Assembly (NCBI RefSeq): GCF_024171765.1
Contig: NZ_JAMTCI010000001.1
Location: 2,466,796 to 2,530,795, forward strand
Source: Williamsia deligens
GTDB lineage: Bacteria; Actinomycetota; Actinomycetes; Mycobacteriales; Mycobacteriaceae
DNA length: 64,000 bases
Direction: 5' to 3'
The notes beneath the pieces were generated by a model that had not been told where the DNA came from, ran no database searches, and saw nothing but the letters and a program-made list of their open reading frames with translations. The position numbers and the translations under genes were made by a program. Position 1 is the stretch's first letter; each line of letters starts with the position of its first letter. Positions 15,383 through 58,698 of this stretch are shown piece after piece.

Positions 15383-15418
15383 CAGAACGGCCCCCACCTC
15401 CGGGTGGGGGCCGTTCTG
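15383..15418 (+). terminator. rpoBC terminator
   Basis: A perfect 16-bp stem, CAGAACGGCCCCCACC (15383-15398) with its complement at 15403-15418, closed by a TCCG tetraloop, starts 12 bases after the rpoC stop. It is one of the strongest hairpins in the window. There is no T-run, in keeping with actinobacterial terminators. Confidence 0.85.
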
Positions 15419-15446
15419 CGTCTGCACCCCGCCCCCCGCCCCAACT

Positions 15447-15523
15447 CGCCGAGCGTGCACCACATCCCGTCCACCGTGCGGTAAATGGCGCCGAGCGTGC
15501 ACCAGATCCCGTCGAGCGTGCAC
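15447..15523 (-). repeat. 21-bp tandem repeat array, family A, copy 1
   Basis: Read on the minus strand, about 3.7 units of exactly 21 bp follow each other without spacers, the first starting at the base after the TGA stop of the DUF559 gene. Each unit opens with GTGCACGCTCG or the variant CCGCACGGTGG, continues with RCGGGATSTG-like sequence, and the next begins at once. The same family occurs at 16453-16578 in the opposite orientation and in degraded form at 58639-58698. One frame would encode a heptad of the type CTLDGIW, but there is no start or ribosome site. Confidence 0.85.
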
Positions 15524-16405
15524 TCATCGTCCTCGGCGACGCCCGGGTGCGTCGAGCAGACCGCGGAGGTGGGCGAGAAACCCGAGCGGGTCGTCGGACA
15601 GCTGCACACTGTTGCGTCGCTCGGTGTGCCACCCGAGACGGGCGGTCTGTCGATCGCGTGCGGCGTCGGACCGCCGTTGCTCGTCGCTGGAGTGGTACTC
15701 GAAGCCGTCGAACTCCACGCCGATCTTCTCTCGGCGGTATGCGAGGTCGAACTTCGCGACGATGGTTCCGTGGTCGTCGTAGACCTTCACCTGCGTCTCG
15801 GGCCTGGGTAGGCCATCAGCAAGGATGAGGTGCCGCGTCCAGCTCTCTCCTGACGATTCCGCGCCGGCGTCGATCCAGGGCACGAGCCCACGGAGCTGCC
15901 GGATGTTCCGCACCGCGGGATGCGCGACGACGAACCGCCACAACTCCATGTGGTCGAGGTCGGTCGCTCGTGTGAGGTCATCGAGATGGGCCAGCGCGAG
16001 CCAGGCAGGAGCGCGGCGTCCGAGGTCGAACGCAGTCCTGATCGGCGAGGTCACAGGCATGCCGTCGACGACGACCACATCGGCCGGGTTCACGTCGGTT
16101 CGGTGGATGCGGACGTCGTTGAACCGTCGCGCCTGACCCGTCGGCGGGCGTATGAGCTCGACAGTCGCACCATGGTCGAAGAACGTCGCGCCGTGGAGGA
16201 CAGCGGCGCTGACCCCCGCGACGACGGATTCGGGTCCCGCCCTCAGCCATGCTGCCCGGATGGTCTCCGTGGGTGAGAGGGGTGACCCCGCCTCGGCGTA
16301 GACCCCACGATGGACCATGCGGAAGTCGCGGCGGATGTCTCGCGGACTGATGCCGGCGGGGAGCCCGGAATCGCGCAGGGAGAACGCGTGGTTGTCGATG
16401 CTCAT
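15524..16405 (-). CDS. DUF559 domain protein, AbiEi-like N-terminus with Vsr-type nuclease fold
   Basis: A 293-residue protein of a family common in actinobacteria. The N-terminal part (residues 1-100: GLPAGISPRDIRRDF, RGVYAEAG, AAVLHGATFFDHG) resembles the winged-helix and AbiEi-like segment of transcriptional regulator/antitoxin proteins. The C-terminal part (about 210-290) has the DUF559 endonuclease-like core with acidic residues (KFDLAYRREKIGVEFDGFEYH) and a basic tail. Activity is unproven for this family; restriction, repair or antitoxin roles are all possible. Start chosen at the ATG giving SIDNHAFSLRDSG, the usual N-terminus. It stands alone and is bracketed by family A repeat arrays on both sides, which is the odd feature here. 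Confidence 0.75.
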   Translation of the reverse strand: MSIDNHAFSLRDSGLPAGISPRDIRRDFRMVHRGVYAEAGSPLSPTETIRAAWLRAGPESVVAGVSAAVLHGATFFDHGATVELIRPPTGQARRFNDVRIHRTDVNPADVVVVDGMPVTSPIRTAFDLGRRAPAWLALAHLDDLTRATDLDHMELWRFVVAHPAVRNIRQLRGLVPWIDAGAESSGESWTRHLILADGLPRPETQVKVYDDHGTIVAKFDLAYRREKIGVEFDGFEYHSSDEQRRSDAARDRQTARLGWHTERRNSVQLSDDPLGFLAHLRGLLDAPGRRRGR

Positions 16406-16452
16406 GCTCGTTGGACGCAAGCGACGGCCGATCGGTTCTCGCCGATCTCGAG

Positions 16453-16578
16453 GTGCACGGTCGAGGGGATCCACCGCACGGTCGACGGGATCTGATGCAC
16501 GGTCGAGGGGATCTACCGCACGGTCGGCGGAATCTGGTGCACGGTCGGCGGAATCTGGTGCACGGTCGGGGGGGTGGG
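16453..16578 (+). repeat. 21-bp tandem repeat array, family A, copy 2
   Basis: Six head-to-tail units of exactly 21 bp (starts at 16453, 16474, 16495, 16516, 16537, 16558). Units begin GTGCACGGTCG, CCGCACGGTCG or ATGCACGGTCG and end in GGATCTG or GGAATCTG; the last unit decays into a G-run. There are no unique spacers, so this is not CRISPR. It lies in the divergent intergenic region between the DUF559 gene (start 48 bp away) and the flavin reductase gene (start 44 bp away), pointing opposite to the array at 15447-15523. Confidence 0.9.
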
Positions 16579-16621
16579 ATGGGGCTGCGTGAGTCGGGGG
16601 TGGAACGGGTACCCCGCCTGC

Positions 16622-17806: not shown

Positions 17807-17861
17807 CCGGCCGATCGGCCCACTCGGCAGGGAGTTTCGGCACGCTCGACGAGTTGAGGGG

Positions 17862-26501: not shown

Positions 26502-26534
26502 CCCCAGGCCGTCCACCCCGCGGCAATCCCACCC

Positions 26535-26618
26535 GTCGAGTGGGCGGTTGAAGACGTCCACTGGGCGCTTAAGAACGTCGACTGGGCGGTTGGAGACGTC
26601 GAGTGGGCGATCGAGATC
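26535..26618 (+). repeat. 21-bp tandem repeat array, family B, copy 1
   Basis: Four head-to-tail units of exactly 21 bp start at 26535, 26556, 26577 and 26598. Units run GTCGAGTGGGCGGTTG-type sequence followed by AAGAC/GAGAC, with variants at few positions (S at base 6, G/C at base 13). The same unit recurs inverted at 27562-27645 on the far side of the FAD oxidoreductase gene. The array starts 34 bases after the acyl-CoA dehydrogenase stop and ends 36 bases before the next start. Confidence 0.9.
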
Positions 26619-26654: not shown

Positions 26655-27569
26655 ATGAGCAGCACGCGGGTGACCGTCGTCGGGGCGGGGATGTCGGGAG
26701 CGGCGTGTGCCGCGGAACTGGTGCGCGCCGGGGTCGACGTGCGTGTCGTCGACCGAGGCCGCGCCCCCGGCGGTCGGATGGCTTCACCGACACTGCACGA
26801 TCGCCGTGTCGACACCGGAGCCGGGTACTTCACCGTGCGCGACAACGGCTTTGACGCGGTCGTCGACGGTTGGCGTGACCGGGGGCTCGCCCGTCCGTGG
26901 ACCGACACGTTCGGGGTGCTCGCACCCGACGCGGCCCCGTCGACGAAGTCCGGACCCACACGCTGGGCCACCGACGGCGGTCTGCGGTCCCTGGTCCGCG
27001 ACGTCATCGGGGACATCCCGGTCGAGACCGCATCGCTCGAGGAGCTCCCCGACGGCCACGTCGTCGTCGCCATGCCCGATCCGCAGGCCGCGCGGCTGGT
27101 CGAGGTGCCCGACGGCGTCGACTACGAGCCGGTCATCGCGGTGGTCGTCGGGTTCGACGGTTCGCTCGAGCTGCCGTTCGAGCACGCAGCGTTCGTCAAC
27201 GACCACCCTGACATCGCCTTCGTCGCCGACGACGGCAGCCGCCGCGGTGACGCTGCGCCGGTGCTCGTCGCGCACACCACGCCGGACCGGGCTGGTCGGC
27301 ACCTCGACGATCCCGACGCCGTCGTCCCGGTGGTGGTCGACGCGCTGCGCGGGCTGCTGGGCGTCGGTGAGCCCGCGTGGACCCACGCCCACCGGTGGAC
27401 GTTCGCGAAGCCCGTCGGGCAGCACGACCTGTCGTGCCATGTCGCCGTCGACGGCGATCGGCTCATCGGGCTGGCCGGTGACCAGTGGTGTCCCGAGGGT
27501 GCGCCCCGCGTCGAGAGTGCCTGGCGATCGGGCGTCGATCTCGCCGCGGCTCTGCTCCCGCGACTCTGA
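26655..27569 (+). CDS. NAD(P)/FAD-dependent oxidoreductase, renalase-like
   Basis: A 304-residue flavin-dependent amine-oxidase-fold protein of the small, bacterial renalase-like group. The N-terminal Rossmann motif VVGAGMSGAACAAEL is followed by the acidic ribose-binding region VVDRGRAPGGRMASP and the DTGAGYFTVRD segment typical of renalase homologues. The C-terminus has the second FAD contact (LIGLAGDQWCPEGAPRVESAW). Renalases oxidise isomeric dihydronicotinamides, so a metabolite-repair role is possible but not shown. The ATG is 6 bases after TACGGT, suggesting leaderless translation. The gene is bracketed by inverted family B repeats, and its last codons overlap the outermost, degenerate repeat unit. 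Confidence 0.82.
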   Translation: MSSTRVTVVGAGMSGAACAAELVRAGVDVRVVDRGRAPGGRMASPTLHDRRVDTGAGYFTVRDNGFDAVVDGWRDRGLARPWTDTFGVLAPDAAPSTKSGPTRWATDGGLRSLVRDVIGDIPVETASLEELPDGHVVVAMPDPQAARLVEVPDGVDYEPVIAVVVGFDGSLELPFEHAAFVNDHPDIAFVADDGSRRGDAAPVLVAHTTPDRAGRHLDDPDAVVPVVVDALRGLLGVGEPAWTHAHRWTFAKPVGQHDLSCHVAVDGDRLIGLAGDQWCPEGAPRVESAWRSGVDLAAALLPRL

Positions 27570-27645
27570 GCGCCCAGTCGACGTCCCTAAGCGCCCACTC
27601 GACGTCTCCAAACGCCCAGCCGACGTCTCCAACCGCCCACTCGAC
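27562..27645 (-). repeat. 21-bp tandem repeat array, family B, copy 2 (inverted)
   Basis: Four units of exactly 21 bp on the minus strand, covering 27625-27645, 27604-27624, 27583-27603 and 27562-27582. The first three match the upstream array (GTCGAGTGGGCG at the head, GAGAC or GGGAC at the tail); the fourth is degenerate and overlaps the last codons and stop of the FAD oxidoreductase gene. The array lies just past the end of the sixA gene on its own strand. Confidence 0.9.
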
Positions 27646-27660
27646 GGTGTCAGCGGAGGG

Positions 27661-58630: not shown

Positions 58631-58638
58631 GGGATCGA

Positions 58639-58698
58639 CTGCACGCCCGACGGGATCGGGTGCACGCTCGACGGTGCTCATCTGCACGCTCGGCGGCG
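58639..58698 (+). repeat. 21-bp repeat array, family A, copy 3 (degraded)
   Basis: About 2.8 units of the family seen at 15447 and 16453: CTGCACGCCCGACGGGATC, then GTGCACGCTCGACGG, then CTGCACGCTCGGCGG, with the second unit one base longer (22). It lies 8 bases after the S4-protein stop and 45 bases before the DUF3558 lipoprotein start. Confidence 0.75.

Follow-up and report, generated by a model that had tools for sequence, protein, structure and literature searches.

A nuclease-like gene between outward-pointing 21-bp repeat arrays in Williamsia: a probable REP/RAYT-like repeat element with an unrelated enzyme

The window, a stretch of 64,000 nucleotides of Williamsia deligens DNA, carries a nuclease-like gene framed by two arrays of a 21-bp repeat that point outward on either side. 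This locus is probably the autonomous copy of a two-part, REP/RAYT-like repeat element run by an unrelated nuclease, whose protein we infer binds, cuts and copies the repeats. The unit with the gene belongs to a larger, dispersed family of repeats. A small mobile or selfish unit had been put forward in the original prediction; array-gene-array units were indeed found present and absent at orthologous sites, which favours mobility. The features of the window are as follows, M1 being the class of the window gene's own unit (core GCACGSTSGRCGRG) and M2 a sister class.

15440..15523, minus strand: downstream array of four 21-bp units, two of them diverged, pointing outward from the gene
15524..16405, minus strand: nuclease-like gene of 293 aa (ATG at 16403-16405), with an AbiEi-antitoxin-like half (about residues 10-179) and a Vsr/I-Bth0305I/DUF559-like nuclease domain (about residues 182-291)
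16413..16438, minus strand: promoter-like element GAACC-N16-CGTCC, whose end lies 7 bp from the ATG
16455..16580, plus strand: upstream array of six 21-bp units, the last diverged, pointing outward from the gene
17840..17854, plus strand: single M1-class unit adjoining the 3' end of an amidohydrolase-like gene that faces rpoC
26534..26609, minus strand: M2 array (CGCCCACTCGACG and a further 8 bp) on the left side of an amine-oxidase-like FAD gene, of the class that flanks the paralogue G000:C1:815657
27569..27646, plus strand: M2 array right of the FAD gene (26655-27569)
58631..58696, plus strand: short gene-less M1 array, found by Tandem Repeats Finder and by the unit pattern

Both arrays of the gene were recovered by Tandem Repeats Finder. 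As predicted, the downstream one lies on the minus strand and its first unit begins at the base adjoining the stop codon, and the upstream one has six plus-strand units (starting at 16455, 16476, 16497, 16518, 16539 and, for the diverged sixth, 16560); the gap from this array to the ATG is 49 bases. The repeats had been called exact; they are in fact similar, the units differing from one consensus of our choice at 1-8 of the 21 positions (5, 1, 4, 2, 2 and 6 upstream; 1, 8, 2 and 7 downstream), and solely those at 16518 and 16539 are identical. A unit pattern allowing up to three mismatches gave 11 matches in the window against 0.33 expected, a number reached by none of 100 shuffles, and 7 of the 11 fell in the gene's two arrays. 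By Pfam the direct neighbours of the gene are an RNA polymerase subunit gene (rpoC) and Pyr_redox_2 (a pyridine nucleotide-disulphide oxidoreductase), neither of which is a methylase or a toxin, including the nucleotidyltransferase toxin of AbiE. A hairpin at the 3' end of rpoC (15383-15418) showed sub-threshold matches to two sRNA families and is most likely the rpoC terminator; as both matches fall on this hairpin, a known RNA family was rejected as an identity for the arrays. The amine-oxidase-like FAD gene is the second bracketed gene of the window, its outward arrays being of the sister class M2. Three further genes are bracketed similarly, encoding a methyltransferase (L045, 2622-3257), a glycosyltransferase (L049, 3350-4588) and a product that no Pfam family matches (L269, 1936-2667); such genes other than the nuclease may be captured cargo.

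We then considered the protein. Pfam returned AbiEi_1 (PF09407) above the cut-off (31.1, cut-off 22.2), REase_MTES_1575 (PF18741) below it (33.2 of 38.2) and DUF559 (PF04480) also below it (12.4 bits, cut-off 20.6); the DUF559 label given originally corresponds to a weak Pfam match. AbiEi models of the PADLOC defence library matched the protein, and an NCBIfam scan led nowhere. An AlphaFold2 model was obtained with a pLDDT of 84.9 and a pTM of 0.82. Its residues from about 182 to 291 resembled the endonuclease-like structure 3hrl (Z 11.7, 2.7 A, 92 aligned), the homing endonuclease I-Bth0305I (3r3p; Z 11.7, 2.9 A, 97 aligned) and Vsr (1cw0; Z 10.4, 2.7 A, 101 aligned), whereas residues 10-179 resembled the AbiEi antitoxin 6y8q (Z 10.2, 5.3 A, 162 aligned) and residues 42-192 were also nucleotidyltransferase-like (8an5; Z 9.6, 3.2 A, 138 aligned). 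The single Foldseek match under 0.001 was the AbiEi-family protein Rv2827c (1zel), and a sequence profile search found 3hrl (E 4.5e-5) and 3r3p (E 0.019). No HUH/Y1 tyrosine transposase of the IS200/IS605 type appeared in the Pfam, NCBIfam and PADLOC scans or in the fold, which give an AbiEi part plus a Vsr-like nuclease. In an alignment of 27 of the 50 Williamsia homologues, 18 close and 9 remote by our choice, E187, D220, D233 and G234 were invariant in 27/27 and position 231 was E or D; this invariance in sequence argues for a functional nuclease.

Homologues were collected from the source genome (G000, 4.41 Mb) and seven Williamsia congeners (G001 to G007), which together hold 53 at E<=1e-5. 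The 56 locus names were reduced to 50, L062 and L136 having no phmmer match and L060, L061, L127 and L133 being dropped as partial or fused. Close homologues were those above 240 bits (n=19 including the window gene), and L100, whose 3' side reads N, was left out of two-sided counts. By eye, outward arrays were present on both sides of 18/18 readable close homologues. A strict test of our own making, which takes 200-bp flanks and asks for at least 8 inverted 9-mers and for at least twice the direct ones plus 4, was passed by 16 of these 18 (L096 and L105 failed) against 1 of 99 control genes, taken with a simple ORF caller from the window and the homologue loci; this one was the window's FAD gene with its sister-class arrays. 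The pass rate was 17/22 for loci in other genera of the family, 5/31 for remote homologues in the genus (inverted exceeding direct in 14 and direct exceeding inverted in 14) and 3/27 in a class-wide sample, where 24 failed and 24 of the 27 loci came from one other genus of the family; both the 22 and the 27 loci were the best-scoring ones and not random. The array-gene-array claim therefore applies to the close clades and to some of the family but not to every homologue, and the class-wide result narrows its scope while leaving the evidence within the close clades unaffected.

Homologues, with arrays or not, were found in 150 of the 301 genomes sampled from the family and in 91 of the 394 from the class; since few candidates per genome were scored (the best 8 in the family survey, the best 6 in the class survey), absences are soft. 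Phage records held no homologue and 5 plasmid records held one at 29-35% identity, and a phage- or plasmid-borne element was rejected on these grounds; following up the plasmid match H2 led nowhere. At some loci of other genera (L225, L227, L231 and L232-L255) a long palindrome was seen on one or both sides, in some cases with a CACGCTCGGCG-like core at its end. The idea that flanking palindromes replace the arrays elsewhere was not borne out, perfect arms of at least 8 bp on both sides being found at 10/27 class-level loci versus 15/99 control genes, a weak enrichment. The remote homologues L057, L058, L059, L110, L111 and L124 are accompanied by other short motifs (GTGGAGCG, GAACCCGCG, GTGCGAACG) in mixed orientation.

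The repeat sequence goes with the protein clade. Orthologues of the window gene have M1 units, and other clades have CGCCCACTCGACG (M2), GTGCCCAACTG (M3), GCCCAACGAACGG (M4), GCCCAACAGACGG (M5) or GGCCCAACACGG (E). The two arrays of one gene had a median of 26 common 8-mers, compared with 1 between loci whose proteins are less than 60% identical, and protein and motif similarity were correlated (Mantel rho 0.47, 0/5000 permutations), with a rho of 0.22 for the 120 pairs below 60%. At a single orthologous site (site C, see below) three motif types (M2, M3 and M1-like) were seen, and from one type to another the proteins are 50-61% identical. The relation to identity is not strict: the two M3 groups, L095/L098 and L099/L101, are 59-60% identical and have one motif, whereas L055 and L095 are 59% identical and their motifs differ. 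G006, with 10 M1 pairs, has the homologue L096, 52% identical, whose flanks bear an M1-like motif, and G002 and G003 contain M2 pairs though no close M2-type protein is found there.

Close homologues also have in common a promoter-like element. In 19/19 of them GAACC, GAAAC or GGAAC is followed after 16-18 bp by CGTC(C/G), a pattern that we take to be an ECF-sigma type promoter; its end lies 7-8 bp from the chosen start in 18/19 and 1 bp from it in L094. The pattern was found in front of 0/41 control ORFs of the window, a comparison in which the regular expression was composed after viewing the sequences and the control starts are uncertain. At 7 bp from the ATG, the element of the window gene would imply a leaderless mRNA. 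The spacers of gene-less arrays retained a promoter remnant in 4/32 cases, which is not significant (122/2000 shuffles were equally high), and the idea that gene-less arrays are internal deletions of a gene copy was accordingly not borne out. One gene-less pair at site C of G004 (L142, G004:C6) keeps a promoter-like piece, GTGCGTCCC, in its core and is possibly a deletion derivative, this being suggestive only.

Arrays without the gene are dispersed through the genomes. Strict tandem M1 pairs numbered 17, 0, 14, 2, 27, 0, 10 and 16 in G000 to G007 (0 in all for the reversed control), and M2-M5-type pairs 85, 2, 5, 10, 92, 13, 89 and 97 (control 0); by list count the 85 sister-class pairs of G000 correspond to about 30 places, including the flanks of two paralogues. 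In G001 and G005, which lack a clade-1 protein, strict M1 was absent and a looser pattern gave 1 and 4 pairs; M1-type units seen at two of the orthologous sites (159 and 161) speak against absolute co-occurrence in the genus. Across the family, a homologue at E<=1e-20 was found in 21 of the 24 genomes with at least two M1-type pairs versus 129 of the 277 others (Fisher p 8e-5; 14/17 with the home genus left out, p 0.005), tests that ignore relatedness and overstate independence because the genomes are related. The main exception was G120, with 186 M1-type pairs and no homologue at E<=1e-20 among the best 8 candidates scored; G210 (2 pairs) and G293 (4 pairs) likewise had none among theirs.

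The arrays often lie between convergent 3' ends, as judged by eye with a simple ORF caller and without a count. Gene-less inverted pairs, deduplicated by spacer and with orthologous sites counted separately, were outward in 32 and inward in 5 of 37 cases (p 7e-6). Since inward pairs also occur between convergent genes, array orientation is not set by transcription, and an RNA terminator of fixed orientation was rejected. The distance between the arms followed a period of 10.5-10.75 bp (R 0.79-0.82, the best of periods 6 to 60), where random sets reach R 0.57 at the 99.9% level; the phasing persisted with distinct lengths alone (p 7e-6) and with lengths outside the main classes (p 0.003), ten extra spacers having been picked by us, one of which (G000:2226772) repeats a site of the 32 with the distance taken from a different unit. 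Together with units of 21 bp, a phasing of 10.5 bp points to double-stranded DNA with both arms gripped by a protein on a single helix face. That the repeats are the target of the protein, as originally suggested, is favoured by the match of motif to clade, the helical phasing and the AbiEi-like and nuclease folds, and it is from these that we infer binding.

Orthologous sites were located through peptides of the flanking genes, whose names (DinB-like, ABC permease, MFS, cation efflux, dienelactone-hydrolase-like) are our reading of the translations. Site A, behind rpoC, contains the gene and M1 arrays in G000, G004 and G007. In G001 it holds an inverted M3 pair alone, the M3-type protein (L098) being encoded elsewhere; in G002, G003 and G005 an FAD gene lies there between M2/M3-type units to one side and E-type units to the opposite side, and G006 (L141) carries GTGCGAACG, a different motif, as an inverted pair. 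At site B, G002 and G003 are occupied, G005 has other DNA and the remaining genomes are not syntenic. Site C is occupied in seven genomes; in G004 the gene is missing and an inverted M4/M5-type pair is found, the type that surrounds G004's own site-D gene. Site D is occupied in G000, G004 and G007 and empty in 5/8, with 22-46 bp free of arrays. Site E is occupied in G002, G003 and G005 and empty in 5/8, with gaps of 7-24 bp in four genomes and 110 bp of another repeat in G007, where about five copies of a 26-bp tandem repeat that include the neighbour's stop region were seen (L148, G007:C10, about 466-575). For the gene-less arrays, six M1 sites of G002 were followed, with G002 included in the totals: arrays were absent in 3/5 genomes at site 157, 3/5 at site 163, 5/8 at site 161, 3/7 at site 162 and 1/7 at site 158 (one more N), and at site 159 the class was M1 in two genomes, M2 in three and diverged M1 in one, with N in one. 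Neither a target-site duplication nor an exact junction was seen in this species-level comparison, in which the whole gap differs between alleles. The original prediction was to be given up if arrays occurred at many loci lacking the gene and empty and occupied sites did not vary; arrays do lie at many gene-less loci, but empty and occupied sites exist.

A mechanism can be proposed from these observations. The AbiEi-like half would bind the 21-22 bp units, several side by side on one helix face, and the bound protein would hold the two inverted arms together while the Vsr/homing-endonuclease-like domain cuts the DNA at or near them. Repair of the break would copy the arms, either alone or together with the gene, to further intergenic sites, in many cases at convergent 3' ends, and may also convert pre-existing arrays, which would explain the change of class at one site. 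Gene-less inverted arrays would be the non-autonomous members, and each protein clade would maintain its own unit sequence. We give about even chances to the further claim that this is an undescribed class of mobile element, in which an AbiEi-Vsr nuclease reads phased 21-22 bp arrays, cuts, and seeds or converts intergenic arrays, with clades owning their repeat codes: a double-strand-DNA counterpart of REP/RAYT derived from a homing-endonuclease-like enzyme. The element may also benefit its host.

The main rival, which we hold to be rather unlikely, is a resident host DNA-binding protein whose working sites are the arrays, acting as insulator, chromosome organiser or transcription roadblock at gene ends; the arrays would have spread via slippage, gene conversion and selection, and the protein would move nothing. 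The frequent position between convergent 3' ends, the helically phased arms, the motif class that may differ between genomes at one site and the promoter pattern common to close homologues all fit such a protein, as does the description of AbiEi relatives as repressors in the available part of PMC7319586. It accounts poorly for the nuclease residues kept in all aligned homologues, for whole units missing from array-free sites D and E, for arrays on both sides of the gene itself and for the inward pairs between convergent genes.

If the arrays beside the gene were merely operator repeats, the system would be an ordinary autoregulated AbiE-type toxin-antitoxin. The AbiEi-like fold and the AbiEi model matches would suit this, and the part of PMC7319586 available describes AbiEi antitoxins as binding to inverted repeats within the promoter of their own gene; nonetheless, the neighbours are RNA polymerase subunit and oxidoreductase genes with no toxin, the nuclease domain is fused, and there is no place for an array behind the stop codon or for dispersed arrays, so that we regard this as very improbable. 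Anti-phage defence or restriction, in which the nuclease would attack foreign DNA and the arrays would mark self or hold the enzyme, is very improbable: a restriction-like nuclease domain and AbiEi models taken from a defence library speak for it, and against it are the lack of a methylase among the direct neighbours, the behaviour of the arrays as a repeat family and the phage records without homologue. The least credible reading is that the repeats are simple tandem duplications at the ends of genes and have nothing to do with the protein. Tandem Repeats Finder does report other tandem repeats in the GC-rich window, where they are common, and most remote homologues lack the layout, but for the close clades the strict test (16/18 against 1/99) contradicts it, as do the single motif on both sides of a gene and the helical phasing of the arms.

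Should the REP/RAYT-like reading be true, it would give a role to proteins now labelled DUF559, supply natural protein-DNA pairs with several specificities, explain the intergenic arrays of these genomes and make the choice between a selfish and a host-serving role at gene ends testable. Residues 10-179 have the fold of AbiEi antitoxins (S. agalactiae AbiEi and Rv2827c), and in the accessible part of PMC7319586 AbiEi proteins bind adjacent 23-bp repeats; unlike the AbiE type IV toxin-antitoxin, the locus has no toxin neighbour, a fused nuclease, and arrays on both sides and genome-wide. Residues 182-291 share their fold with Vsr, with EDxHD/Vsr-like homing endonucleases such as I-Bth0305I, which forms a dimer on a target just under 60 bp long as stated in the part of PMC3943268 available, and with DUF559/REase_MTES_1575 (PF04480, PF18741; 3hrl). 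In I-Bth0305I-type homing the arrangement is different, since here the gene stands alone between genes amid copies of its presumed target, and this target is a dispersed repeat at many sites and not one allelic target. Occupied and empty sites (D and E) recall a classical transposon. The CGTC-tagged REPs of alpha-Proteobacteria, which the available part of PMC3733652 reports as dispersed inverted repeats without a dedicated transposase and with hairpins of 8-9 bp stems, are alike in being a dispersed inverted repeat family and differ in their hairpins; nothing here ties the AbiEi-nuclease protein to them, and they are a lead only. In open papers on DUF559, titles and the beginnings of abstracts contain no link to dispersed repeats, and the accessible parts of the open-licence literature on DUF559, AbiEi, EDxHD/Vsr homing endonucleases, actinobacterial repeats and actinobacterial RAYT hold no description of such an element.

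The closest parallel is REP/RAYT (REPtron, REPIN). In the parts of PMC3733652 and PMC8049555 available, its gene is flanked by inverted repeat copies, gene copies are repeat-specific, and gene-less inverted pairs with a short spacer are dispersed, mostly in intergenic regions between unidirectional and convergent genes; the likeness in working draws also on the available part of PMC3116915. As in REP/RAYT, the gene lies between inverted copies of its own repeat class (in close homologues, most remote ones not) and the repeats are dispersed as gene-less inverted pairs. Unlike REP/RAYT, the enzyme is a Vsr-like nuclease with an AbiEi-like domain and not a HUH tyrosine transposase, and the repeats are phased tandem units of 21-22 bp and not single GTAG-tagged palindromic hairpins. 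With its unrelated enzyme and a repeat of different construction, the locus falls outside REP/RAYT. Dispersed bacterial repeats with a dedicated enzyme are known mainly as REP/RAYT, and an unrelated type of enzyme seems here to reach a similar arrangement.
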